From NCBI GenBank assembly GCA_017883235.1, contig JADGNY010000061.1:1-39471 (forward strand): a stretch of 39,471 bases of DNA, written 5' to 3'. The notes beneath the pieces were generated by a model. It did no database searches, had not been told where the DNA came from, and saw nothing but the letters and a program-made list of their open reading frames with translations. The stretch comes from Thermoanaerobaculia bacterium. Its GTDB lineage: Bacteria > Acidobacteriota > Thermoanaerobaculia > Gp7-AA8. The position numbers were made by a program, and so were the translations under genes. Below, in pieces: positions 2,221-27,133 of this stretch (its first letter is position 1; each line of letters begins with the position of its first letter).

Positions 2221-2304
2221 GAGCTCCTCCGCTCCGGCCGCTTTCGCACGTCCCCCCCCAACCGGTGTGGGTGACGAATGCCAATTCAGGAGGATTCGCT
2301 CCCA

Positions 2305-4356
2305 ATGAGAAAGCTCCTTCCGCTGCTTCTTCTTGCAGCCAGCGTGGCCTCGGCGCAGACGCCGGTGCCCGTGCAACACGAAGTGATCGAGGTAACGGCT
2401 ACGCGCGTAGCCGAGGATGTCCTCAACGTTCCTGCATCCGTGACCGTCATCGACGGCGACGAGCTCCGGGCGCGCAACGCCACCGACCTGGCCTCGGCAT
2501 TGGCGACCGTGGCCGGAGTATCGATTGCGCCCGGCGGTGAAGGCGGACCGGCCGGCGCGGTGCCCGAGATGTGGGGACTCCGCGAGTTCGACGCCTTTCT
2601 GCTCGTCGTCGACGGCGTCCCGTGGGGCGGCGCGTTCAACCCCGACCTCCCCACCCTGGATCTCACCGACGTCGATCGGATCGAAGTCCTCCGTGGCTCG
2701 GCACCGGTCATGTACGGGGCGACGTCGTTCGTCGGCGTGATTCACGTCATCCATCGCGCTCCCGGCGCGCCGGGGACCGGCCGTGTATCGGCCGGCTCGT
2801 ACGGAAGCGGATCGGCCGCGGTCTCTCTGCCACTGTCGCAGACACCCGACCTCCAGCAGTCGATCAGCGCGAATGCCGACCGCAGGGGGTTCCGCGACGA
2901 CAACACCGGCTTCGACCGTTACCACGCGCTCTACCGCGCCTCGGGAACGGCGAGCGGCGGGACGTTTCGCTTCGACGCCGACGTCTCCGCTGTGCGCCAG
3001 GATCCGAACAGTCCTCATCCGCGCATCGGCACCGCGCTCACCCGCGACGTCCCGATCGACGCCAATCACAATCCCGGCGACGCGCACCTCGACCAGGACC
3101 GCATCCATCTCGTCGGCGGCTGGGAGTCGAAGCTGGGCGGATCACCGTGGACCTCGACCATCGCCGTCTCGCATTCGACTTACGGCATCGTGCGCGGCTT
3201 CCTCACCGACGTGTCCGCGGCCAGTCCGAACGCGTTCGGCTTCACGCAGGACCGCACGGTCAATGACGTCTATTTCGATACGCACATCGTCCGCACGATC
3301 TCGCCGGCGTTGCGCGTCGTGGCCGGCTTCGATCATCTCTACGGCAACGCCCACGCGACGAGCGCTACATTCAACTACTTCGCGCCGCTGACCGGCGGCC
3401 GGGGAGAGCGCAGCGGCGATGTTCCTGTCTTCGAACAATTCGATGCACGCGACCGCCGGAACTTCTCCGGTCTCTACGCCAGCTCCCAATGGACTGCCTC
3501 TCCGCGGCTTCACTTCGACCTCGGCGCGCGCCTGAACCGGACGTCCGAGAGCCGCAACACCAACGGCCCCGACGGTCCGCAGTCCGAGACCCGCTCCTTC
3601 ACCCGGCTCTCCGGCAGCGCCGGCGTCGACTACACGCTCTTCACCCGCGACCGCGATGCGATGGTCCTGTTCGCCGACTACCGCAACACCTTCAAGCCGG
3701 CGGCGATCGATTTCGGACCGGAAGCCGAGGTCGACATCCTCAATCCCGAGACCGCATCGAGCTACGAGGTGGGCGCCAAAGGAAGGCTCGATGACAGCCG
3801 CCTTCGCTGGACCGTGTCACTCTTCCAGATGGACTTCTCCAACCTGGTCATCGCCACGACGGTGAATGGCGCGCCCGCGCTCGAGAACGCCGGCAAGGAG
3901 CGTTTCAAGGGAGCGGAGGCGGAGCTCGATTACGAATGGGCATCCGACGTTCATACCCACTTCGGCTACAGCTATCACGACTCGCGGTTTCGCGACTTCG
4001 TGCAGGAGTTCGACCCCGGTGTCCCCACCCAACTGGCGGGCCGAAGGCTGGAGATGACACCCTTCAATCTCGCCGGTGCCGGTGTGCTCTACGCACCGAA
4101 GAGTGGGTTCAACGCCAACGTGCTGGTGAACTACGTCGGCGGCCGCTGGCTGGACATGCGGAACACCGCGCCGGCCAAGCCGTACACGACCTGGTCGGCC
4201 GGCATCGGCTACCGCCTGTCCCACGGTGAGCTCCGCCTCGACGGCTGGAACCTGAGCAACGTCCGCCCCCCGATCGCGGAGAGCGAGTTGGGGGATGCGC
4301 AGTACTACCTTCTGCCCGCCCGAAGCTTCGACATTTCCTATCGCCATTTCTTCTAG
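2305..4356 (+). CDS. TonB-dependent outer-membrane receptor
   Basis: ATG at 2305 is preferred over the in-frame ATG at 2278 because AGGAGGA sits 10 bases ahead and the protein then begins with a proper Sec signal (MRKLLPLLLLAASVASAQ). The product is 683 aa. Right after cleavage comes a TonB-box-like EVIEVTATR. The plug domain covers about residues 35-160, with VPASVTVIDGDEL, LLVVDGVP and the plug-end motif DRIEVLRG-x3-VMYGA. The rest is a beta-barrel rich in Tyr/Arg/Asp strands, ending in the usual terminal aromatic (SYRHFF). Such receptors import siderophores, cobalamin, metals or glycans with TonB-ExbBD energy. The substrate cannot be read from sequence. The copper-enzyme cluster downstream makes a metal or metallophore possible, but there is no direct evidence. 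Confidence 0.93.
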   Translation: MRKLLPLLLLAASVASAQTPVPVQHEVIEVTATRVAEDVLNVPASVTVIDGDELRARNATDLASALATVAGVSIAPGGEGGPAGAVPEMWGLREFDAFLLVVDGVPWGGAFNPDLPTLDLTDVDRIEVLRGSAPVMYGATSFVGVIHVIHRAPGAPGTGRVSAGSYGSGSAAVSLPLSQTPDLQQSISANADRRGFRDDNTGFDRYHALYRASGTASGGTFRFDADVSAVRQDPNSPHPRIGTALTRDVPIDANHNPGDAHLDQDRIHLVGGWESKLGGSPWTSTIAVSHSTYGIVRGFLTDVSAASPNAFGFTQDRTVNDVYFDTHIVRTISPALRVVAGFDHLYGNAHATSATFNYFAPLTGGRGERSGDVPVFEQFDARDRRNFSGLYASSQWTASPRLHFDLGARLNRTSESRNTNGPDGPQSETRSFTRLSGSAGVDYTLFTRDRDAMVLFADYRNTFKPAAIDFGPEAEVDILNPETASSYEVGAKGRLDDSRLRWTVSLFQMDFSNLVIATTVNGAPALENAGKERFKGAEAELDYEWASDVHTHFGYSYHDSRFRDFVQEFDPGVPTQLAGRRLEMTPFNLAGAGVLYAPKSGFNANVLVNYVGGRWLDMRNTAPAKPYTTWSAGIGYRLSHGELRLDGWNLSNVRPPIAESELGDAQYYLLPARSFDISYRHFF

Positions 4357-4376
4357 TCGCCGGTAGCCGAAACAAA

Positions 4377-4405
4377 CGTAGGTCGGACTCTCAGTCCGAC
4401 CTACG
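4377..4405. repeat. perfect 13-bp palindrome with 3-base loop
   Basis: CGTAGGTCGGACT at 4377-4389 pairs perfectly with 4393-4405 around the loop CTC. It lies 21 bases after the receptor stop codon. The stem is strong enough to act as a transcription terminator or 3' stabiliser, but no T-run follows. The sequence style is that of a dispersed REP-like palindrome rather than a classical intrinsic terminator. Confidence 0.7.
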
Positions 4406-4420
4406 TCCGTTATACGCAGA

Positions 4421-4881: not shown

Positions 4882-6774
4882 ATGGCAATCATCGACATCT
4901 GGATTCAACTCGAAAACCGGCCGTGGGACTGTTGCCCTAACGGCATCGACCGGATGACCGGCACGCACTTCCCCTCAATCGGTGTCCTGAACGGCCACAA
5001 TGTCTACAAGCCTCTCGGCACGGTGAGCGCCTCAAAGCCATTTGGCGAAGATGCACTCATCTTCCGCCGCTACACGGCCAACTGGGCGGCACCGGATGAC
5101 CGCAAGATCAACCCGTGGGATCTGAATGAGCCCGATCCGACGAATACCGGCACCAAAGGCACCATTCCCGGCCCGGTCATCGAGTGCAACGTCGGCGATA
5201 GCGTCCTCGTTCACTTCCGCAACATGGATTCCCGGACAGGAGTCGATGTACTGGCACGCACGCATAGCATCCATCCGCACGGGATCGTCTTCCAGAACAC
5301 CTCTGACGGCGCGTATCCGCTCTCACCGCCGGATTCGACCCAGCCGGTCGGCGCGGAGGCTGCCCAATGGACCGCCATCGGCATGACCGGCCCGAACAAG
5401 ATGGGCGACCGCGTTCCTCCCGGCAGCACCTTCACCTACACCTGGGACACCCACGGATGGCAGGCCACAGCGGGGATCTGGCTCTATCACGACCATTCCA
5501 TCTGCGACATGGACAACGTGAACCTCGGAGCCATCGGCATTCTCGTCGTGCACAATCTCGCCGACACCAACAACGACTTCGTGATCACCCCCGCGGACCT
5601 GCCGAACGGCTCGTTCACCGGCTCTCCTGTCTCCATCACTTGCTTCCCCTTCCCGCTCAATCCTGCCATCACCACACTTCCCAACGACCTCACCGGGTTG
5701 TCCGTTCCTCGTCCCGTCCCACCCGCGCCGGCTCCTCCCATGCCCGGCATGACGATGTCCGTCCCCGCAACCAAGAAGAAGAAGGGGGCAGCCGCAACTG
5801 CCGCTCCGGTTGTGCCCAAGCCCGGCGCCAACGTCATCGCCACGGTCGGACCACCGATCCTCGACCGTTTGGTGGACCGCGGCGGAACGTTGCTGGAGCT
5901 GGACCAGACGCTCACGACGGTCGTTCGTTTCTGTACCCGCAACTACCGCACGCCGCCGGCCAAGGGGCTGTACCTGATGCTCTTCCACGAATTGACGGGA
6001 GCACCCGGGATGTCAATGGCAATCAACGGCCGGGTCTTACTCGGCAATACGCCGACGATCGTCTCCGGCATTGCCACGAAGATGCGGTTCGGCGTGGTGG
6101 GCATGAACAACAACGCATTCCATACCTTCCACCTTCACGGTCATCGCTGGGTCATTCCTGGTGCGGACGGAACCACACCGGGCGCGATCCAGACGAGCGC
6201 GCAGGTGCAGGCAGTTTCGCAATTCGAGGACACGCGGATCTTCGGTCCGGCCAACTCCTTCGGCTTCACGATCAATGGAGCGGCCGGAAGCTTCATGCGC
6301 GCCGGCGGTCCCTCTCCGAACGATGCCAAGGGCGAGTGGCACATGCACTGTCACGTGCTCTCCCACATGATGGGGGGGATGATGGGCTCCCTGCTCATCG
6401 TAGGCGGAGGGGAGACGGCAAGCACGCTGCCTTCAGGCGTTCCCTGCCCGACAGCCGTCGTGGCCACGCCGAACACCTTCGTCGTCCAGAACACGTTGTT
6501 TACACCAGTCTCGATCACCGCCTCTTCGGGCGCGACGGTGAACTTCGATTTCGAGGAAGCGGGCCATACCGTGACCACCAGCACGGGCTCGGCGAGCAAC
6601 ATCGAAATCAACGGCCCTAACGGCCTCGGAACCAGCCCGACCAACAAGACCGTCGCCGTTACACCGATCCCCACGATGAAGACCTTCATGGTCATGGGTA
6701 ATCTCGGCGATCAGATCAAGTTCGAATGCGGCATCCACGGCCCGAACATGCACGGCACCATCACGATCGTCTAG
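4882..6774 (+). CDS. multicopper oxidase with extra C-terminal cupredoxin domain
   Basis: The protein has 630 residues and probably oxidises phenols or metal ions with reduction of O2 to water. All four copper motifs are present: HPH at 131-133, HDH at 203-205, HTFHLHGH at 414-421, and HCHVLSHMMGGM from 489 (type-1 ligands H414, C490, H495 and probably M500). A separate blue-copper domain follows at about 525-630 with H562 and C616-x2-H619-x3-M623, a complete type-1 set. Residues ~275-315 form a Pro/Met/Lys-rich insert containing MPGMTM and KKKK, possibly a copper-binding or flexible loop. There is no signal peptide, which is unusual for this family. AAAGGAG precedes the ATG. A hairpin follows the gene, then the tyrosinase. 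Substrate is unknown; laccase-like activity is inferred. Confidence 0.93.
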   Translation: MAIIDIWIQLENRPWDCCPNGIDRMTGTHFPSIGVLNGHNVYKPLGTVSASKPFGEDALIFRRYTANWAAPDDRKINPWDLNEPDPTNTGTKGTIPGPVIECNVGDSVLVHFRNMDSRTGVDVLARTHSIHPHGIVFQNTSDGAYPLSPPDSTQPVGAEAAQWTAIGMTGPNKMGDRVPPGSTFTYTWDTHGWQATAGIWLYHDHSICDMDNVNLGAIGILVVHNLADTNNDFVITPADLPNGSFTGSPVSITCFPFPLNPAITTLPNDLTGLSVPRPVPPAPAPPMPGMTMSVPATKKKKGAAATAAPVVPKPGANVIATVGPPILDRLVDRGGTLLELDQTLTTVVRFCTRNYRTPPAKGLYLMLFHELTGAPGMSMAINGRVLLGNTPTIVSGIATKMRFGVVGMNNNAFHTFHLHGHRWVIPGADGTTPGAIQTSAQVQAVSQFEDTRIFGPANSFGFTINGAAGSFMRAGGPSPNDAKGEWHMHCHVLSHMMGGMMGSLLIVGGGETASTLPSGVPCPTAVVATPNTFVVQNTLFTPVSITASSGATVNFDFEEAGHTVTTSTGSASNIEINGPNGLGTSPTNKTVAVTPIPTMKTFMVMGNLGDQIKFECGIHGPNMHGTITIV

Positions 6775-6790
6775 ACGCACTCCACCTGCT

Positions 6791-6837
6791 GGTATGTGGG
6801 CCTGATTCAAGGCCCACATACCACGCACTCATTTTTT
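6791..6837 (+). terminator. hairpin with delayed T-run between oxidase and tyrosinase genes
   Basis: A perfect 13-bp stem (GGTATGTGGGCCT at 6791-6803 with its complement at 6810-6822, loop GATTCA) starts 17 bases after the multicopper oxidase stop. Six T residues follow at 6832-6837, nine bases after the stem. That distance is too long for a standard intrinsic terminator. It may be a partial terminator that lowers expression of the downstream genes, or an mRNA 3'-end stabiliser. Confidence 0.55.
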
Positions 6838-6872
6838 CTGCACACACATCACAAGACCGAGCGGAGGCAACC

Positions 6873-9800
6873 ATGGGCTGTCGCAAGAACCAGGCAACTC
6901 TCACCACGGCGGAACGGCAAGCGTTCGTCAATGCCGTCATCAGGCTCAAGAATGAAGTTCCCAGCCAGATGGGGCTGACCAACAGGTACGACGACTACGT
7001 TCAGGTTCACTTGAACGCCATGACGGCGGCGAATGGATGGGCGCACCAGTTACCGGCATTTCTGCCGTGGCATCGCGAGTTTCTGCGCCATTTCGAGCTC
7101 GATCTACAGGCAATCGATCCGACAGTGACCATCCCCTACTGGGACTGGACGGCCGATCAGAATCCAGCCGCGCCGGGAACCCCCTTTACCGCCGACTTCA
7201 TCGGTGGCGACGGAGACGGCGCGGACTCCAGGGTCACCACGGGCGTCTTTGCCTCGGCCAATGGCAAATGGCAATTGAACGTGCTCACGGGGGGCTCCCA
7301 TGATAACAAGCCCTACCTGCGCCGCGAGTTCGGCCTCTCCGCGCCCAACCTCCCTTCGCCGGCACAACGAAACGTTGCGCTGAACAAGACTGTCTATGAC
7401 GTCGCTCCATTCAACAGCGGCAGCAACGATGGATTCAGAAACTTCATCGAGGGCTGGCACTCTACCGGAGGAGGAGCGAACGACGCTCCCCCGCAAAACC
7501 ACAATCGGGTTCACGTCTGGGTCGGCGGCAACATGCTCCCGGCGACGTCGCCGAACGATCCCGTTTTCTGGCTGAACCACTGCAACATCGACCGCTTGTG
7601 GGCGGTCTGGCAGGCCATGCACCCGGCTGCCGCTCCCTACGGTCCCGTCTCCGGCGCGCCAACCGGTCACAACCTCAATGACACGATGATCTTCTTTCAG
7701 GGTGGCCCGGCACCCTGGCCGGACACGTCCACGCCGGCCGGTGTCGTCGACAATCACGCCCTCGGCTACTGGTATGACACCGATCCTCCACGCGTCGTCC
7801 TGCTGACGCCGAGCGTTTCCTTCGTCGACGTTCAGCAAGGGATCGGCGGCACCGGCATCACCACGTATCGCGCCATCAAATTCGAGTGCGAATCGTGTGG
7901 TGACGTCACCCTGGACATCACCGCGGGGCCGACCGCGGGATTCGCCGCTCCGACGCTCACGGAAAACGTCCACCCCAATCACGATCCGACATCGGGACTC
8001 TCGCCGAGCGAGGGGGCCCTGTGGATCTCGTACACCTCGACGACGGCCGGCTCCTCGATCACCGGCAGCGTCACCGTCCGCGCCACCGACGTCAACACCG
8101 GAACGGTCTTCGGCCCGTGGGTCGTCAATCTTTCCGCGAACACGGTGGCCCGCGATGTTTCCGCGGTCGCGCTCGTGCTCGACCGCTCGGGAAGCATGAC
8201 CACGGACGCGGGCAACGGACACCAGCGCGTCGAGCTGATGCGCACCGCGGTGTCGACCTTCATCGATCTCATGCAGGACGGCGACGGCTTATCGATCGTC
8301 CGCTTCGACAATCTCGTCGATACACTCATGACGGTAACCAACGTTGGAGCGATCCCCGGAGGCGCGGGGCGTCTGCAGGCCCAGGACATCGTCACCACGC
8401 ACGACCCGCTCAAGACGCTCGATCCTCGGGGCTCCACGTCGATCGGCGGCGGCATCATCGCCGGCAAGGCCGCTCTCGATGCAGCGTCCGGAACGTTTAC
8501 CAAACGCGCCATGATCGTTCTCACCGACGGCTTGGAGAACACGCCGCCGATGATCATCCCCGACGCCGCCGCGAGCCTCAACGACCACACCTTTGCCATC
8601 GGCTTCGGCCAGGCCGCGGCCATCAGCACCGCGGCACTCAGCTCCATCACCCAGAACCACGGCGGCTACCTGATCGTCACCGGCCCGGTCACTCAGGAAG
8701 AGAACTTCGCGCTCACTGAGTACTTCCTGAAGATCCAGGCCGGCATCAGCAACTCCAGCGCCGTGCTCGATCCCCGAGGGGAGCTCGTTTTCGGGGCGAC
8801 ACACCGGATTCCGTTCCAACTGACCCGAGCCGACTTCGGGGCCGACGTCGTCCTTCTGAGCCCCGCGCCCCAGCTCATCGACATCCGGCTCGAAGCGCCG
8901 GATGGCTCGATCATCGATCCGGCCGTCGCGGGTGCCGAGGCGGCCATCGCCTTCGTCAGTACGCCGCGGGTGAGCTACTACCGCGCCTCGCTGCCAATGC
9001 TGGCCAAAGATCCGAAAGGCAGTCATGCCGGCCAATGGCACGTTCTGCTCAGTCTCAGCGACAAGGCAAGGGGAGCCGAGCGGCAGTTGGCGGCGCGGTT
9101 GTCGCGCGCTGCCCTGCCGTACAGCCTCCTCGTCCACGCGTATTCAAACCTCACCTTCCGCCCGAGCCTCGTGCAATCGGGTTTCGAGCCCGGCGTTGCG
9201 GTCGATCTTCGCGTTGCCATCAACCAGTACGACGTTCCCCTCCCGACCCCGGCCACGGCCTGGGCCGACATCCTGCGCCCCGATGGAACCAGCAGCCTGT
9301 TGATGCTCGACCGCATCGCGGCCGGCCGCTATTCGGCCAGCTTTGTGGCGTCCGATTCCGGCATCTACACCGCCACCATTCGTGCGCGCGGCGTGACGCT
9401 CGAGGGGCAGAAGTTCCATCGCGAGCAGAGGTTCACGGCGGCCGTCTTCGCCGGCGGCAATCAGATCGCCCAGCCGCCAGACGACCGCGCCTGCAAACTG
9501 CTGCATTGCCTGGAGGGATCGATCGGACCGGAGCTCCGGAACGAGCTCGGAAAACGGGGCTTCGACATGAAACACCTCGAGAAGTGTCTCGATGAACAAT
9601 GCCGTGGGTCACACGCCTCGTTAGGCGGCGAGAAGCCGTTCGATCCGCAAGCGCCTGACCTGAAAGCGAGCGTAGGAGGCGTGCAGCAGGCGCGCTTTGA
9701 ACTGATTGCCGGAGAACAGAAAGCGGCCAAACCATTGCCCTTCGCCGCGCTCGTCAAAGGAAAGCGCGTGCACAAACCGAAGGCCGAGCCGATGATCATG

Positions 9801-9905
9801 AACTTCGGGATTGACATGCCGATGGGAAAGAAGAGCAAGATGAAAATGCCGAAGGGGAAAACCAGGGCACGGAAGGGCAAGGCGAAAACGCCGAAGGGCA
9901 GGTAG
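6873..9905 (+). CDS. tyrosinase fused to a von Willebrand factor A domain
   Basis: ATG at 6873 has GGAGG upstream and gives 1010 aa; the frame is open further upstream, into the multicopper oxidase gene. Residues 1-300 are a type-3 copper tyrosinase: CuA H46, H58 and H67 (LPWHREFLRHFE), CuB H210, H214 and H236 (NHNRVHVW and NDPVFWLNHCNIDRLW). This domain should hydroxylate phenols and oxidise catechols to o-quinones. Residues ~310-425 look like a beta domain. Residues ~428-620 are a vWA domain with intact MIDAS (D437-R-S-G-S, T522, D552), a metal-dependent protein-binding fold. Residues ~640-860 are beta-rich. The end carries a Cys-containing segment (C874, C879, C905, C910) and a Lys-rich tail (962-1010, about 14 Lys). 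No signal peptide is visible. The tyrosinase-vWA fusion is not one I know as characterised. Confidence 0.92.
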   Translation: MGCRKNQATLTTAERQAFVNAVIRLKNEVPSQMGLTNRYDDYVQVHLNAMTAANGWAHQLPAFLPWHREFLRHFELDLQAIDPTVTIPYWDWTADQNPAAPGTPFTADFIGGDGDGADSRVTTGVFASANGKWQLNVLTGGSHDNKPYLRREFGLSAPNLPSPAQRNVALNKTVYDVAPFNSGSNDGFRNFIEGWHSTGGGANDAPPQNHNRVHVWVGGNMLPATSPNDPVFWLNHCNIDRLWAVWQAMHPAAAPYGPVSGAPTGHNLNDTMIFFQGGPAPWPDTSTPAGVVDNHALGYWYDTDPPRVVLLTPSVSFVDVQQGIGGTGITTYRAIKFECESCGDVTLDITAGPTAGFAAPTLTENVHPNHDPTSGLSPSEGALWISYTSTTAGSSITGSVTVRATDVNTGTVFGPWVVNLSANTVARDVSAVALVLDRSGSMTTDAGNGHQRVELMRTAVSTFIDLMQDGDGLSIVRFDNLVDTLMTVTNVGAIPGGAGRLQAQDIVTTHDPLKTLDPRGSTSIGGGIIAGKAALDAASGTFTKRAMIVLTDGLENTPPMIIPDAAASLNDHTFAIGFGQAAAISTAALSSITQNHGGYLIVTGPVTQEENFALTEYFLKIQAGISNSSAVLDPRGELVFGATHRIPFQLTRADFGADVVLLSPAPQLIDIRLEAPDGSIIDPAVAGAEAAIAFVSTPRVSYYRASLPMLAKDPKGSHAGQWHVLLSLSDKARGAERQLAARLSRAALPYSLLVHAYSNLTFRPSLVQSGFEPGVAVDLRVAINQYDVPLPTPATAWADILRPDGTSSLLMLDRIAAGRYSASFVASDSGIYTATIRARGVTLEGQKFHREQRFTAAVFAGGNQIAQPPDDRACKLLHCLEGSIGPELRNELGKRGFDMKHLEKCLDEQCRGSHASLGGEKPFDPQAPDLKASVGGVQQARFELIAGEQKAAKPLPFAALVKGKRVHKPKAEPMIMNFGIDMPMGKKSKMKMPKGKTRARKGKAKTPKGR

Positions 9906-9942
9906 CCGTCGCCGCCGGAGCACACCGAATGCGCTGAGGAGA

Positions 9943-11487
9943 ATGAACGTGGCCAAGATCGCAACCATCAAGATTCATCCTTCCATCGGGATCGCCAGAA
10001 TCGGAAACAGCCCGGCCGGGTTTTTCATCGGCCCGGAAATACCGGGAGACCATACGCCGCCCGACGGCGGCTACAGGGACGCCCAGGGACGGATCAAACG
10101 TCAGGCAGCCCGCTTTCGGCTGTTTGCCTACGATGCAAAGGGGACGCTCATTCAGGAGATCACATCCAAAGAGGCCGACATCACATGGACGGTCGATCTC
10201 GCCAACACGAAGGCGGCATGGCTCAAGTTTCAAGGCCGCAAATCGGTCACCAGGAAGGATCTGCGCAATGCATCCGTAACGGACCGCGGCACCTTGATGA
10301 TTACGCCCGGACCGCGCTCGGTAACCGGCCCGAATCAGTCCGCCATTTTCGATACCGGCAAGTTTCTCGGCGCCGCCGTTCCCCTGGGTGACATCAACAC
10401 CGACCGGCAAGGCCGGCTGCTCGTTCTTGGCGGCTTCGGACGGTCCGGCTCACCGGAAGGTCTGGAGATCGATGAGAATGAGTTCGCCAATAATGACGGC
10501 TGGCACGATGACGTCTCCGACGGTCCGGTAACCGCCACGGTCACACTCAAGAGAGATGGGTCGACGGTCGAAGCCGTTGGCGCATGGGTGATCTGCGCGG
10601 TGCCGAAATACGCACCTCCCATGTACAACGTCATCACGCTCTATGACGTTCTCATGCAGGTTGCAGTGGACAAGCTGGGCCTGAAACCACCCGCCAAGCC
10701 CTCGTTTACGAAGGATATCTATCCGCTTTTCAAACGGGCCATGCTGATGCGGTGGGTCAGCGCCATGGTGGCGCACCCCTCATCTCATGCGGACCAGCAG
10801 CCGATGCACATGGCCCATCATGGCAGCGTCAAAGGGCCGGCGCACGCGACGCTTCCAGGCGTGATCCCGCCGCCGGGATCCCCGTCCGCGCGCGCGGCGA
10901 TCTTCGCGAAAATGCGCGACCCGGCCATCCCCCGTCAGAAGCTGAGTGGCGAGGCGGACATGCCGATGATCCACTCGGATTACTATCCGAGTGAGTCCAA
11001 TCAGCCATTGACCGATCTCCAGTACGAGAACTTGAAAAAGTGGAAGAACGGCAACTTCATCAACGACTGGTCCGGCCCTCCCACCGTATCCCGAAAGATC
11101 ACACCCGAGGGCCTGGACAGGGCCGGACTCGAAACATGCGTCGGCGGGGCGTTTTATCCAGGCATTGAAGCCAGTTGGATGATGCGTGACACCTTTACAT
11201 ACTCCGAGCCGTTCCGTCTGAGCCACGAGAACCTTGCACCCGGCGACGTCACGAAACAGATGGCAGTACCGTGGCAGGCGGATTTCTCTGATTGCAAGCA
11301 GGAGGGCGAATTAGCCTGGTGGCCCGCGCAGCGTCCGGACGATGTGATCCCCGACGATCATGTCAAACAGGTTCCGTGGACGCGCGGCCTGGTCTCGAGC
11401 ATGGCCGAAATGGTCCAGAACTGGCACCGTCTCGGATTTGTCGTCAAGAAGGGCTCCCGATACGTTGAAACGGAGCGCGAAGGCTAA
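9943..11487 (+). CDS. LodA-like quinoprotein amino-acid oxidase
   Basis: The protein has 514 residues and belongs to the LodA/GoxA family. Those enzymes oxidise the epsilon-amine of lysine (LodA) or glycine (GoxA), releasing ammonia and H2O2, with a cysteine tryptophylquinone (CTQ) cofactor made from their own Cys and Trp. The family N terminus IHPSIGIARIGNS is at 11-23. The cofactor Cys motif ETCVGGAFYPGIE places the candidate at C399, and AWWPAQRPDD places the candidate Trp at W459 or W460. LodA of Marinomonas is 726 aa, so this is a compact member. There is no Sec signal, as in LodA. ATG 9943 follows GAGGA very closely; GTG at 9949 has better spacing. It lies 37 bases after the tyrosinase and is followed by its maturation partner LodB. 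Lysine versus another amine substrate cannot be decided from sequence. Confidence 0.9.
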   Translation: MNVAKIATIKIHPSIGIARIGNSPAGFFIGPEIPGDHTPPDGGYRDAQGRIKRQAARFRLFAYDAKGTLIQEITSKEADITWTVDLANTKAAWLKFQGRKSVTRKDLRNASVTDRGTLMITPGPRSVTGPNQSAIFDTGKFLGAAVPLGDINTDRQGRLLVLGGFGRSGSPEGLEIDENEFANNDGWHDDVSDGPVTATVTLKRDGSTVEAVGAWVICAVPKYAPPMYNVITLYDVLMQVAVDKLGLKPPAKPSFTKDIYPLFKRAMLMRWVSAMVAHPSSHADQQPMHMAHHGSVKGPAHATLPGVIPPPGSPSARAAIFAKMRDPAIPRQKLSGEADMPMIHSDYYPSESNQPLTDLQYENLKKWKNGNFINDWSGPPTVSRKITPEGLDRAGLETCVGGAFYPGIEASWMMRDTFTYSEPFRLSHENLAPGDVTKQMAVPWQADFSDCKQEGELAWWPAQRPDDVIPDDHVKQVPWTRGLVSSMAEMVQNWHRLGFVVKKGSRYVETEREG

Positions 11488-11517
11488 GAGTCTGCGCGGC
11501 AGAACGATGGAGCGAAG

Positions 11518-11566
11518 ATGGTGGACGAGCCTTGGGCAATCAGCGCAGCCGGCCGTGCCGGCCTAG
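11518..11566. repeat. dispersed 48-bp repeat at the lodB start, copy 1
   Basis: This stretch matches the reverse complement of 22301-22348 at roughly 40 of 48 positions, including the shared blocks CGAGCCTTGGGCAA and GCCGGCCGTGCCGGC. The lodB start region lies inside it. The repeat is therefore a mobile or amplified intergenic element that abuts or supplies the lodB translation start. Confidence 0.75.
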
Positions 11567-12683
11567 CATCGACGTGGCCGTGCTCGGCGGAGGGCCCGCC
11601 GGCGCGGCCACGGCAATCGCTCTTTGCCAGCGCGGACATTCGGCCGTCGTCATCGAGAGCTCCGGGTATGGCAATGTGCGCGTCGGCGATACATTCCCCC
11701 CTCGCATTCGCATCCCTCTGGTCAAGCTCGGCGTGTGGGAGCAGTTCGCGGCGGACAGACACGTACCAGCCCCCGGCATCCGCTCCGCGTGGGGACAAGA
11801 CGATCTTTACGACAACGACTTCATCTACAGCCCCTATGGCGTGGGATGGCACATTGACCGCGGCCGCTTCGATTCCATGCTGGCCCGCTGTGCGGAGGAA
11901 GCAGGAGCGATTGTCTATCGCCAGGCGGTGCTGTTGTCATGTCTCGAAGATGAGAACGGCAATTGGCATATCGAGATCGCGGAGAACGATCGCCGGCACC
12001 ACCTCCGCGCTGGTCTGGTCGTCGATGCCACCGGCCGTTCATCCTCATTTGCGCAAAAACAGGGCATTCCGCGGATTCCATACGATCGCCTCATTGGGGT
12101 AATCGGTTTCGCCACATCGCGGACGCCGGAGAAGGAGCCCTCATCATTCACTCTCATCGAAGCCGTCGAGTCCGGATGGTGGTACTCGACCGTGCTCCCC
12201 GGTTCCCGCGCCGTGGCCGCGTACATGACCGACTCGGATCTGTACGGCAAGGCACAACGGCTGGAAAGCGACTACTGGATAAGCCAATTGCGTCGGACAC
12301 TCCACATTCAGCCGAGCGTGAGTGCCTGCACCCTGGATGAGTCCAACCATGTCGTGGCCGCAAACACCTCCCGGCTCGAACGGCTGACCGGGAAGAATTG
12401 GCTGGCCGTGGGAGACGCTGCCATGGCATTCGATCCTCTCTCAGGCCAAGGTGTACACAAAGCTCTGCAGTCGGCACTGAAGGCCGCAGACGCGATCGAT
12501 CAGCGGCTATCCGGATCCATCGAAGCGCTGCCGGATTACGAAGCCGCGATGACGCGCGATTTCGACGAGTACCGGCGCACGCGGAACAGCATCTACGGCA
12601 AAGAGCGGCGATGGCCGGAGGCGCCGTTCTGGCAGCGGCGGCATCCCCACGAAGTCGCTACTGCTTTTCCAGCAGATCCTTGA
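11532..12683 (+). CDS. LodB-like flavoprotein, LodA maturation factor
   Basis: The protein has 383 residues and is related to FAD-dependent halogenases and monooxygenases. The N-terminal dinucleotide fold IDVAVLGGGPAGAATAIAL is at ~12-30, GWHIDRGRFDSML is the substrate/FAD segment, and the second FAD motif GDAAMAFDPLSGQGVHKAL is near 295-313. LodB proteins are needed to form the CTQ cofactor in the partner LodA, and the adjacent LodA-like gene supports that role. The start is uncertain: TTG at 11532 lies in a dispersed repeat without a clear Shine-Dalgarno, and GTG at 11573 is possible but would trim the N terminus very short. The gene ends with a 26-base tail-to-tail overlap with pilT. Confidence 0.88.
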   Translation: MGNQRSRPCRPSIDVAVLGGGPAGAATAIALCQRGHSAVVIESSGYGNVRVGDTFPPRIRIPLVKLGVWEQFAADRHVPAPGIRSAWGQDDLYDNDFIYSPYGVGWHIDRGRFDSMLARCAEEAGAIVYRQAVLLSCLEDENGNWHIEIAENDRRHHLRAGLVVDATGRSSSFAQKQGIPRIPYDRLIGVIGFATSRTPEKEPSSFTLIEAVESGWWYSTVLPGSRAVAAYMTDSDLYGKAQRLESDYWISQLRRTLHIQPSVSACTLDESNHVVAANTSRLERLTGKNWLAVGDAAMAFDPLSGQGVHKALQSALKAADAIDQRLSGSIEALPDYEAAMTRDFDEYRRTRNSIYGKERRWPEAPFWQRRHPHEVATAFPADP

Positions 12684-23717: not shown

Positions 23718-24536
23718 TCAGATCAGCGCCGTCATCCTCGTGGCCAGCCGCGGATCACCGATCGTCTCCGCTACCTCGGCGAACGACGGCGGCGCACCGC
23801 GCCAGCGCAGGTCATCGACGTCCTCAAAGAGTGGCGCATCGGTCCGCAGCGTTGCCAGCGTCTTGAAGAGCAAGGCCAGCTCGCGGTTGGGACCAGTGAG
23901 AACCTGATCCGGGAATTGTTCGATCGGTCCGTACTGCGCGACGAGACGCGCGGCGGTCTTCGTGCCGATGCGCGGAATGCCGGGATAGCCGTCCGCGGCG
24001 TCGCCGGATAGCGCCAGGTAGTCGGGGATCAGTGCAGGGGCGACGCCGAACTTTGCGCGGACACCGGCATCGTCGCGAATCAGGCCGCTCTTCCGGTCGA
24101 CCTGGACGACCCGCTCCCCCACCACGCACTGCGCCAGATCCTTGTCCGGCGTCCAGATGCACACTTTCTCGACGCGCGGATCGCGGCCCGCGAGGTATGC
24201 GGCCGAAGCAAGGGCATCGTCGGCTTCGAGCTCGACCATCGGCCAGGTGGCCACGCCCATCGCCACGAGCGCGGCTTCCAGCGGATGAAACTGCGCCCAC
24301 AGCGCGCGCTCGATCCCCGCGCCGGTCTTGTAGCCCGGCCAGAGGTCATTGCGGAACGACTCGATGACATGATCGGTGGCCACGCCGATGTGCGTGGCTC
24401 CCCCTTCCAGCATCTGCGCCACCGTGCCGAGAACGCCGGCCACCGCGCCGAACGGAGGATCGCTCTTCTTGAACCGGCGGATCCCGAAGAAATGGCGGAA
24501 CAGCTCATACGTCCCGTCGATGAGGTGAACGATCAT
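23718..24536 (-). CDS. FEN-like 5'-3' exonuclease
   Basis: The 272-aa product is similar to the stand-alone N-terminal nuclease domain of DNA polymerase I. MIVHLIDGTYELFRHFF carries the first metal-binding Asp, ELEADDALAS is the central acidic cluster, TPDKDLAQCV the next, and DYLALSGDAADGYPGIPRIGTKTAARLVAQYG is the DNA-binding helix-hairpin-helix with its Asp pair. It should cut 5' flaps or RNA primers in replication and repair. There is no polymerase domain, so it resembles ExoIX/Xni-type proteins. ATG 24536 overlaps the upstream gene stop (ATGA), which argues against the longer frame start and implies translational coupling. Confidence 0.92.
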   Translation of the reverse strand: MIVHLIDGTYELFRHFFGIRRFKKSDPPFGAVAGVLGTVAQMLEGGATHIGVATDHVIESFRNDLWPGYKTGAGIERALWAQFHPLEAALVAMGVATWPMVELEADDALASAAYLAGRDPRVEKVCIWTPDKDLAQCVVGERVVQVDRKSGLIRDDAGVRAKFGVAPALIPDYLALSGDAADGYPGIPRIGTKTAARLVAQYGPIEQFPDQVLTGPNRELALLFKTLATLRTDAPLFEDVDDLRWRGAPPSFAEVAETIGDPRLATRMTALI

Positions 24537-25459
24537 GCCTTTGCCAGTCGAAGCGCCGCGGCCATCTGATGGAGACGCCAGCCGTATTGCTTCTCTTCCT
24601 GCTGACAACTGTAGACGAGCTTGAGGTCGTGCTCATCGTCGCTCGGGATCACGCGCGCGGCGAGCGACGCCCAATCGGGAAGATCGTGGGCCGGCTGCAG
24701 AGCGGCGTCGAAGTCCGGACGGCCGATGGATGCGTATGCGGCCAGCATGGCCACGGCGAGGTGGTCGACGGCATCGGCGGCGAGATACGGCTGCAGAACC
24801 CGGGTGGCGTGACAGGCCGTGACGAGATGGAGAACGGTGAAATCGCCGGTCGCCAGAAAGAGCAAGGCAGCGATCTTGGCCAGATGGCCAAGCGCGAGGT
24901 TCCTGATCCCGAACCGGTAGTCGTCGAAGGCGGGAATGGCGACGACTTTCAGAATGCTCCCGCTGATGCTGCGCGTTCCAAACTGCTTCGGGAAGCGATC
25001 GTCACGGTTCATCGCCAGAAACGCATCGATCGCCGATTCCCAGCGCATCTCGTCACGGCGTTTCAGTTCCGCGTAACCGACGTCCCACGCGGTGAGGGCG
25101 TCCGGAAGATCGACGTCGTCTCCGCTATCGACGGCGTAGGCCGTGCGGATCAGGCCGTGAAAGGCCTCGCTGGTGAGAGCGGGAGTCAGGGGCGATACGG
25201 CATCGCGCAGAAAGACCTCCCTCCCTTTCTCCTTCAGCTCGGCGGCGAACTTCGTCGATCGCGCGATCTCGCTCTCCGGCTTTGATCGCAGCCGCCGCTG
25301 GTAGAACGCCGCGAACTCGCGAAGCCGCTCGTCGCTCGCGCCGAGGCGGTCGAGCGCGACCAGCGCCATCGACAGATGATTGGCCATGCCGTTGGCGGCA
25401 TAGCTGGCGCTGAACGGCCGCGAATCGGCGAGCAGCGAATGCAGCGTGCCCGTGGCTAC
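24533..25459 (-). CDS. questin oxidase-like protein, start disturbed
   Basis: The segment FSASYAANGMANHLSMALVALDRLGAS, followed by a His-containing helical protein (FHGLIRTAYAVDSGDD, FTVLHLVTACHATRVLQPYL), matches the questin_oxidase-like (DUF4243) family. Members are oxygenase-like proteins named after a fungal Baeyer-Villiger enzyme; bacterial roles are unknown. The start is a problem. No ATG, GTG or TTG precedes the conserved block in this frame until ATG 25387, which would delete its beginning. A different frame offers ATG 25491 with GGAGGAGC ahead and reads MIAKRITPEEE to a TAG just where this frame takes over at GGAGGAGGAG. A one-base frameshift there would give a normal N terminus. The gene overlaps the nuclease by ATGA. 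Confidence 0.75.
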   Translation of the reverse strand, partial: VATGTLHSLLADSRPFSASYAANGMANHLSMALVALDRLGASDERLREFAAFYQRRLRSKPESEIARSTKFAAELKEKGREVFLRDAVSPLTPALTSEAFHGLIRTAYAVDSGDDVDLPDALTAWDVGYAELKRRDEMRWESAIDAFLAMNRDDRFPKQFGTRSISGSILKVVAIPAFDDYRFGIRNLALGHLAKIAALLFLATGDFTVLHLVTACHATRVLQPYLAADAVDHLAVAMLAAYASIGRPDFDAALQPAHDLPDWASLAARVIPSDDEHDLKLVYSCQQEEKQYGWRLHQMAAALRLAKA

Positions 25460-25576
25460 TCCTCCTCCGGGGTGATTCGTTTCGCGATCATTGACAGCTC
25501 CTCCGAAAACTCTTGCCGGACTAACCCGTATAGGCAACCCGACGTCCAATTCTGGCAGCAAACGAGGGACTTCGTA

Positions 25577-27133
25577 ATGCGTAAAACGACCGCGCCGTTG
25601 ATGGCGTCTCTGGTGGTTCTTTTCCTCTTCGTCGCACCGCTTCGCGCGGACGATCCCAAGCCGCAGGACAAACCGGCCGCGGACAAGGCTGGAGACAAGG
25701 CCCCGGAAAAGCCTCCCGAGCCGGTGAAATTCGTCCGGCAGCATAAGACGAAGCTCGGCGGCGCGGACGTCGCCTACACCACCACCGCCGAGGAGATCTT
25801 CCTCAAGGACAACGACGGGAAAAACACGGCCAGCTTCTTCACCATCGCCTACACGAAGGATGGCGTGGCGCGGCAGGAAGAGCGGCCGATCACGTTCGTC
25901 TACAACGGCGGGCCGGGCTCGGCTTCGCTCTGGCTGCACTTCGGACTGGTCGGCCCGCGGATCATCGACATCCCCAGCGACGCCGCCGATCCCGGCAGCC
26001 CGCCGTACAAACTGCGCGACAACGACGACACGATCTTCCGCGCCACCGATCTCGTCTTCATCGATCCCGTCGGCACCGGCTACAGCCACGCCATGGGCGA
26101 CAAGAAGAACGAGGATTTCTGGGGCTACGACGAAGACGCCGACTCGGTCGCGGAGTTCATCCGCACCTTCATCACCCAGCACAATCGCTGGAACTCCCCG
26201 AAATACATCCTCGGCGAAAGCTACGGCGGCATCCGCTCGGCGCTTCTCGTCCCGCGCCTGCAGGGGAACTTCGGCGTCGGCCTCAACGGCATCATCCTCC
26301 TCTCGCCGGCCCTCAACATGGGGACGCTGCCATTCGTCGTCAACGGAAACGACCTGACCTACGCGACGTCGCTCCCCGCCCTGGCCGCGACGGCGTACTA
26401 CCACCACAAGCTTCCCGATCAGTGGAAGGATCTCGATACGCTTCTACGGGAAGTGGAGAAGTTCGCGGGGACGGAGTATCTGGTGGCGCTCTTCCAGGGC
26501 GACGAGCTGCCGAAAGCGGAGAAGGAACGGATCGCGGACCGCGTTCACCGCTACACCGGCGTTTCGAAGGAGTACATCCTCCGCGCCGATCTGCGGATCT
26601 ACGCGCCGCGATTCACCAAGGAGCTGCTGCGCGACGAAGGGAAGTCGGTGGGCATCCTCGACGGGCGCTACGTGCAGACCGAGATCGACCGCGTGGCGGA
26701 GTTTCCGGACAATGACGCCTTCAACGCCAAGACCGGGCCGATCTACATCTCCCTTTTCCAGAACTATCTCCGCAACGAGCTCGGCGTCGACCTGGTGAAG
26801 CGCTACGCGCCGCAGAATGGCGAGGCCAATCAGAAGTGGAAGCGCCCCGCGAACGGGCGAGGCGCCTTCGCCGGCTACGTCGACGTCACCGGCGCGCTGG
26901 CGCAGGGAACGAAGGACAACGAGGCGCTGCGCGTCTTCGCAGCCGCCGGCTACAACGACCTGACCACGTCGTACTTCGCCATGCGCTACATGCTCGAGCA
27001 CAGCGGCATCGACACTAACCGCCTGACCATCAAGGACTATCCCGGCGGCCACATGATGTACCTGCACCGCCCGTCACTCGAGGCGCTGTCGAAGGACATC
27101 GTGGCGTTCATCGAGAAGGGGAATGGGCATTAG
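25577..27133 (+). CDS. secreted serine carboxypeptidase, S10 family
   Basis: ATG at 25577 has GAGGG upstream and starts a Sec signal (MRKTTAPLMASLVVLFLFVAPLRAD); the open sequence before it is non-coding. The 518-aa protein has a Lys/Pro-rich linker (~26-50) and then an alpha/beta-hydrolase. NGGPGSASLW (110-119) is the substrate and oxyanion segment, GESYGG has the nucleophile S215, GYND supplies D461 and YPGGHMMYLH supplies H492, so the triad is complete. It should remove C-terminal residues from peptides in the periplasm or outside. It is divergent from the questin-oxidase-like gene across ~120 bases, where promoters for both must lie. Confidence 0.93.
   Translation: MRKTTAPLMASLVVLFLFVAPLRADDPKPQDKPAADKAGDKAPEKPPEPVKFVRQHKTKLGGADVAYTTTAEEIFLKDNDGKNTASFFTIAYTKDGVARQEERPITFVYNGGPGSASLWLHFGLVGPRIIDIPSDAADPGSPPYKLRDNDDTIFRATDLVFIDPVGTGYSHAMGDKKNEDFWGYDEDADSVAEFIRTFITQHNRWNSPKYILGESYGGIRSALLVPRLQGNFGVGLNGIILLSPALNMGTLPFVVNGNDLTYATSLPALAATAYYHHKLPDQWKDLDTLLREVEKFAGTEYLVALFQGDELPKAEKERIADRVHRYTGVSKEYILRADLRIYAPRFTKELLRDEGKSVGILDGRYVQTEIDRVAEFPDNDAFNAKTGPIYISLFQNYLRNELGVDLVKRYAPQNGEANQKWKRPANGRGAFAGYVDVTGALAQGTKDNEALRVFAAAGYNDLTTSYFAMRYMLEHSGIDTNRLTIKDYPGGHMMYLHRPSLEALSKDIVAFIEKGNGH

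Follow-up and report, generated by a model that had tools for sequence, protein, structure and literature searches.

A multicopper oxidase, a vWA-bearing tyrosinase and LodA/LodB encoded together in a Thermoanaerobaculia genome: a possible second assembly of cooperating oxidases

Do oxidases of different chemistry that are encoded side by side work together, and could such gene sets have been assembled more than once? This question is raised by a 39,471-nt stretch of DNA from a Thermoanaerobaculia bacterium of the phylum Acidobacteriota (contig JADGNY010000061.1; hereafter the window, meaning the whole stretch). By reading frames and family scans, region 4882–12683 of its forward strand holds genes for a multicopper oxidase (MCO), a tyrosinase fused to a von Willebrand factor type A (vWA) module, a LodA-type quinoprotein and a LodB-type maturase, in that order and of the types that the initial annotation had named. 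We consider cooperation of the oxidases likely, and a functional link finds support in the recurrence of the combination, which occurs in two LodA lineages and, in one case, within a single protein chain. That the locus moreover encodes a set of cooperating oxidases and is a second version of the published group ID tyrosinase-MCO-LodA operons, probably assembled separately, is, in our judgment, an even call.

Known operons and a separate branch

The adjacency itself, which had been presented as the novelty, is already known in kind. The consulted sections of PMC4417212 (Campillo-Brocal 2015) describe group ID lodA operons from 11 genomes that also hold tyrosinase and MCO genes, with a gene of 138–142 aa between lodA and lodB in 10 group ID genomes and Saccharophagus as one member without it. 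Those of PMC2855505 (2010) report the three genes consecutively in Saccharophagus degradans and, for Marinomonas mediterranea, control of the three activities by PpoS. The window shares the feature of tyrosinase and MCO genes beside lodA, as adjacent genes. Elsewhere, plasmids of Mesorhizobium huakuii (L160, its lodA annotated in two pieces) and Rhizobium ruizarguesonis (L161) carry MCO, tyrosinase, LodA, a small gene and LodB, so that the order seen in the window recurs apart from the small gene; among the loci examined, only the window's genome showed the exact order including a vWA-bearing tyrosinase. Loci L075/L158 and L153 carry tyrosinase, LodA, the small gene and LodB, and the L153 contig ends upstream, where an MCO would be sought. 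L153 belongs to the same Acidobacteria gp4 genome as L024, a relative of the window's locus described below, so that both kinds of locus, window-type and group ID-like, occur in this assembly. Further tyrosinases lie on other contigs of that assembly (L154, L155).

Tyrosinase, LodA and LodB share one strand in the group ID-like operons, and the MCO comes first in L160 and L161, as in the window. By contrast, these operons have a gene of 138–149 aa between lodA and lodB where the window has a gap without a gene; their tyrosinases lack the vWA module; the L161 MCO has a Sec-like leader and the window's has none; and their LodA proteins measure ~700 aa or more, compared with 514 aa in the window. 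The window's version of this known kind of cluster is new in its other enzyme branches, the vWA-bearing tyrosinase, the cupredoxin-bearing MCO and the absence of the small gene, as well as in the galactose-oxidase-like domain that kin of the window's set add or fuse.

The group ID-like rows form one clade in the LodA trees, separate from the window's. Approximately unbiased (AU) tests rejected joining the two groups for LodA (11 rows vs. 27, p = 7.4e-7), MCO (7 vs. 6, p = 5.9e-7) and tyrosinase (the window and four group ID-like rows vs. 15, p = 0.0029). We note that the group ID rows are stand-ins, chosen by the small gene and a tyrosinase, rather than the sequences of PMC4417212; with that qualification, the tests reject the window's LodA as a group ID member. 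The split lodA of L160 entered the LodA tree but not the AU test, and the MCO and tyrosinase trees omit L057 rows that duplicate L159. In an earlier LodA test, only the window was joined to group ID (p = 2e-48). Such a test is less fair, as it separates the window from its relatives, a weakness that the tyrosinase test shares. Judging from these sequence comparisons, the window's set and group ID are likely two assemblies, each drawing on its own branches of the oxidase families, with gene replacement inside an old operon as a possible alternative. Two probably separate assemblies, together with a natural fusion of three enzymes, are strong hints of one pathway behind the co-regulation of the Marinomonas oxidases.

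Contigs from 84,980 species genomes yielded 131 confirmed LodA relatives, and the best 80 of these were retained. The window's protein groups with L024, L025, L026, L027, L028, L029 and L030 in two trees (Shimodaira-Hasegawa-like approximate likelihood ratio support 95 and 96). These include an Acidobacteria gp4 bacterium (L024, 68% identity), Acidobacteriaceae (L030), Variovorax (L025), Fibrobacteria (L026) and Sorangium (L027). The edge of this clade is soft, with L072 inside an unresolved fork in one tree and L072 and L166 beside the clade in another. An MCO, tyrosinase or galactose-oxidase-like gene lies upstream on the same strand within 5 kb in 6 of the 8 clade loci, vs. 2 of 80 other LodA genes (2 of the 74 with at least 2 kb of upstream sequence), and both exceptions (L057, L075) are second LodA copies. 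The Fisher p for this contrast, 1.4e-6, is a nominal value, as related rows were counted and the profiles drew in part on the same loci. Copper-oxidase genes on the opposite strand (L032, L083) or downstream (L089) did not enter the count; loci added later were excluded, and some contigs were short.

Four of the six clade loci with such upstream genes have a galactose-oxidase-like domain. L024 encodes an MCO-cupredoxin, an MCO-galactose-oxidase-like fusion, two tyrosinases, LodA and a third MCO, truncated where the contig ends; no LodB was seen up to that point. L026 has tyrosinase, MCO-cupredoxin, galactose-oxidase-like, LodA and LodB genes; the L027 contig opens within a galactose-oxidase-like gene, whose end is followed by LodA and LodB; L030 has a large MCO, LodA and LodB; and in L028 and L029 a NIPSNAP protein precedes LodA and LodB. 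In Variovorax sp. YR216 (L025, 6974–11491), MCO, galactose-oxidase-like and LodA domains occupy one 1506-aa frame, followed by LodB. The junction contains no stop and no ATG, and ~12 residues join the galactose-oxidase-like and LodA parts. This fusion offers a single protein for a direct search for the joint substrate. In L024, L025 and L026, the galactose-oxidase-like domain retains one Cys, two Tyr and two His at what we take to be the galactose-oxidase positions, with their usual roles; L027 is cut before the first of them.

A bolder reading, which we think possible and on balance doubtful, is that the window's set is one of an undescribed class of oxidase islands found in Acidobacteriota, Fibrobacterota, Myxococcota and a Variovorax. 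Here, up to four oxygen chemistries (multicopper, type-3 copper, radical-copper galactose-oxidase-like and cysteine tryptophylquinone [CTQ]) would form one signal-less assembly acting on one phenol- and amine-bearing substrate, with an origin separate from group ID. Literature searches of limited coverage returned no paper on LodA with galactose oxidase and MCO and, among the titles listed, none on a cluster of galactose oxidase with laccase and tyrosinase.

The enzymes and their possible joint output

The claim that active-site motifs are intact was borne out for all three oxidases. The MCO scores above the cut-offs of PF07731 and PF07732 and has all four copper motifs: HSIHPH(128), HDH(203), HTFHLH(414) and HCHVLSHMMGGM(489). 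An N-terminal region precedes two catalytic cupredoxin domains with a Pro/Lys/Met-rich linker between them, and an extra type-1 copper cupredoxin follows at the C-terminus (aa ~530–630, motif CGIHGPNM(616)). Two-domain bacterial laccases (4m3h and relatives) likewise have both catalytic domains and the copper motifs, but the window's MCO has a longer N-terminus and linker as well as the additional C-terminal domain. Its predicted structure (mean predicted local distance difference test [pLDDT] 36) was not used.

The tyrosinase frame matches PF00264 (E 8e-43) and VWA_2 (PF13519, E 5e-8) and has the six copper-binding His expected from the family pattern (H46, H58, H67, H210, H214 and H236). As listed, the frame (6726–9905) overlaps the MCO; a good ribosome site at 6873 makes that position the probable start. 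Its best single-domain matches in the PDB are Streptomyces-type tyrosinases (6j2u, 1wx2), with which it has the catalytic domain in common. Unlike these, it carries a C-terminal vWA module and tail and has no leader, and no helper gene of the MelC1 kind was seen beside it.

The vWA module spans ~500 residues (nt 8145–9602), and the metal ion-dependent adhesion site residues D437, S439, S441, T522 and D552 (DxSxS, Thr, Asp) are invariant in six proteins. It is found C-terminally on tyrosinases of the window, Microvirga (L120), Haloarcula (L121) and L135, and also on a LodA (L072), an M14 peptidase (Caballeronia, L122) and an M64 peptidase (L134). The module thus spans unrelated enzymes in bacteria and in the archaeon Haloarcula. 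Within the phylum, it was detected in 3 of 396 genomes: the window's own, one with a second tyrosinase fusion and one with the M64 fusion. The consulted sections of PMC4417212 list two actinobacterial LodA proteins with vWA. The module probably serves in binding and not in catalysis, and its occurrence on diverse bacterial and archaeal (Haloarcula) enzymes gives a handle on the site of action. A literature search of limited coverage for tyrosinase with von Willebrand factor found no paper. A candidate laccase adjoining the Haloarcula tyrosinase-vWA was not counted, as we read its domains as resembling a nitrite-reductase-type copper protein plus a plastocyanin domain.

The window's LodA matches LodA_N (PF17990; E 8e-75, 252 bits vs. 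a cut-off of 26.3) and LodA_C (PF18417; E 1e-29, 103 bits vs. 25). Its predicted CTQ residues C451 and W460 and catalytic D447 are invariant in 16 of 16 aligned rows, the window included. The predicted fold first matches M. mediterranea LodA in the PDB (3weu_B, E 4e-28) and then GoxA; the model is fair (pLDDT 73), with <50 in the active-site loop 442–464, and no geometry is claimed. It shares fold, CTQ Cys and Trp, catalytic Asp and a LodB/GoxB-type partner with lysine epsilon-oxidase LodA and the glycine oxidases GoxA. However, the protein is short (514 aa, where the PDB chains have 726 and 816), only 8 residues separate its CTQ partners, and Tyr405 aligns with LodA Cys448 and GoxA His583. 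Phe181 aligns with LodA Tyr211 and GoxA Phe316 in the same PDB alignments, and Tyr or Phe occupies the Tyr405 position in 8 of 8 rows of the window's clade. We take LodA Cys448 and Tyr211 to shape the pocket. GoxA H583, F316 and D678 occur as mutants in PDB titles.

The initial annotation expected allysine-type aldehydes, which the evidence does not support. The window's LodA reaches 219.1 bits against the L-lysine 6-oxidase profile NF038172 (curated cut-off 600); its best profile is that of glycine oxidase GoxA, NF038173, yet it remains far under the cut-off (321.7 bits vs. 750). Because the pocket residues differ, lysine is not the expected substrate. Given these scores and residues we do not favor lysine oxidation, although it is not disproved. 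The LodB-type protein finds its two best of 57 matched families in the LodB and GoxB maturase profiles (NF038171 and NF038174; E ~1e-81, 274.9 and 274.8 bits), though below the curated cut-off of 400.

Other LodA architectures were also seen. L112 (1799–5248) and L123 (8881–12369) encode LodA with a C-terminal haem-oxygenase-like iron enzyme (PF14518), and the consulted sections of PMC4417212 describe LodA fusions with this family at the N-terminus. L166 (7791–11447) carries a ~700-aa tail ending in hydrophobic, membrane-type stretches.

If the oxidases cooperate, LodB, a flavin adenine dinucleotide monooxygenase, would oxidize Trp460, allowing its linkage to Cys451 to form the LodA CTQ cofactor. 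LodA would then deaminate a primary amine to an aldehyde, NH3 and H2O2; this amine, probably not free lysine, could be an amino acid or be carried by a larger molecule. The tyrosinase may convert phenols to o-quinones, with its vWA module tethering it to a partner or a surface, and the MCO may oxidize phenols or quinols and pass the electrons to O2, possibly via the extra cupredoxin. Together, reactive carbonyls, quinones and H2O2 could cause oxidative modification or polymerization of phenol- and amine-bearing material outside the cell or at its edge, after release by a non-Sec route.

On a rival account, which we judge unlikely, the set chiefly yields H2O2 that disperses biofilms, causes autolysis or kills competitors, as for LodA and AlpP, and the copper oxidases detoxify or use by-products. 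The consulted sections of PMC4417212 and PMC4699246 give LodA and AlpP such a role and report H2O2 from LodA-like proteins of Caulobacter and Chromobacterium in biofilms. Absent Sec signals would be compatible with release by lysis. Still, the window's LodA lies far from that of Pseudoalteromonas piscicida (L162), by our assignment probably an antimicrobial group IA protein, and carries a different pocket residue. In addition, tyrosinase and MCO would add little to peroxide killing because H2O2 is not their main product.

Localization, distribution and evidence against cooperation

Several observations weigh against cooperation and separate assembly. For LodB, the AU test did not reject joining the two groups (p = 0.184), and the groups in all AU tests were named after the first tree had been seen. 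Within or beside the clade, L028, L029, L072 and L166 have LodA-LodB with no copper-oxidase gene nearby, and therefore LodA can do without one; adding L072 and L166 to the clade lowers the count to 6 of 10 with an upstream gene. Conversely, tyrosinase-vWA occurs without LodA in L120, L121 and L135, the L136 locus has an MCO with an adjoining tyrosinase and no LodA within the 20 kb examined, and no upstream MCO was found by profile over ~10 kb at L158. No copper chaperone was found among the scanned neighboring frames, none of the three oxidases shows a Sec-type leader, and a hairpin may split transcription of the set.

This hairpin, a perfect inverted repeat, lies in the MCO-tyrosinase gap, which folds better than 200 of 200 shuffles (z −6.8). 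Its inner 8-bp arms are single-copy in the 6.92-Mb genome by exact-pattern search, and a T6 run begins ~9 nt after the stem. The terminator scan called no terminator there, and the hairpin, though strong, is not a classic one. The hairpin could end, attenuate or process the transcript. Of the earlier proposal of one pathway, we retain the functional link, with its two LodA lineages and single-polypeptide fusion; the shared strand and short gaps would suit one transcription unit, but the hairpin may divide it.

The missing Sec signals had been pointed out before, and a crude hydrophobicity test upheld this: LodA scored 0.85, and MCO and tyrosinase gave no candidate stretch. As controls, the upstream TonB-dependent receptor was flagged (2.56) and a PilT-like protein was not. 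By our reading of this test, the partner proteins in L024, L025 and L026 also have no clear leader, as the L026 match (1.72) lies 124 codons into the frame and the L024 match (1.37) is not leader-like. No secretion genes were found among the ten other window frames scanned. The enzymes could therefore be truly intracellular and tailor a small molecule or peptide there, and the fused oxidases of L025 do resemble a multi-step enzyme. We think this quite improbable, since free copper is scarce in the cytoplasm and no biosynthetic or precursor gene adjoins the cluster in the scanned frames, where the single transport gene is the TonB-dependent receptor.

Distribution bears on a last alternative, that the genes are neighbors without a shared pathway, a horizontally acquired oxidase patch kept together by chance. 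At most three candidates were scored per genome in the 396-genome scans of the phylum (LodA, MCO and vWA), and all counts include the window's genome. Of the 396 phylum genomes, 7 have a LodA at E ≤ 1e-60; the class gives 4 of 148 at E 1e-70 and the family 5 of 18 at E 0.001, the best match elsewhere in the family being 42% identical. The MCO was found at E 1e-60 in 2 of 396, the other being L136, and a plasmid search with it gave one weak match. This patchiness, and a GC content of 0.60 in the LodA gene vs. 0.64 in the window, would suit a chance patch. However, the combination is repeated in two lineages and several phyla and occurs as a three-enzyme fusion, so this explanation appears very unlikely to us, and cooperation of the oxidases remains the reading we prefer.

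Locus layout and neighboring sequence

The four genes are separated by gaps of 98, 37 and 44 nt (Table 1). Upstream of the MCO lie the TonB-dependent receptor gene (2278–4356) and two frames without a Pfam match. Downstream are two convergent PilT-like genes, recognized by reading their translations rather than by family scan, one of which overlaps the 3′ end of the LodB gene by 26 nt. The same genome has two further lodA-type genes, on other contigs and in other clades, and one further tyrosinase frame.

Table 1. Features of the oxidase gene set in the window
Feature	Position (nt)	Strand	Basis
MCO, laccase-like, 630 aa	4882–6774	+	PF07731/PF07732, copper motifs, alignment with L024, L026 and L136
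Inverted repeat/hairpin, perfect 14-bp, between MCO and tyrosinase	6790–6823	+	Repeat and folding analysis
Tyrosinase (aa ~1–310) with vWA module (aa ~425–910) and Cys-, Met-, Lys-rich tail, 1010 aa	6873–9905 (probable start)	+	PF00264, PF13519, ribosome site
Short LodA/GoxA-family CTQ quinoprotein, 514 aa	9943 (or GTG 9949)–11487	+	PF17990, PF18417, fold match
LodB/GoxB-type FAD maturase, ~383 aa	11532 (TTG, start uncertain)–12683	+	NF038171/NF038174

A 19-nt inverted repeat (89% complementary) is located at 4371–4411, just 3′ of the TonB-dependent receptor gene. Farther along the window, a frame at 24533–26404 contains a questin-oxidase-like domain (PF14027).

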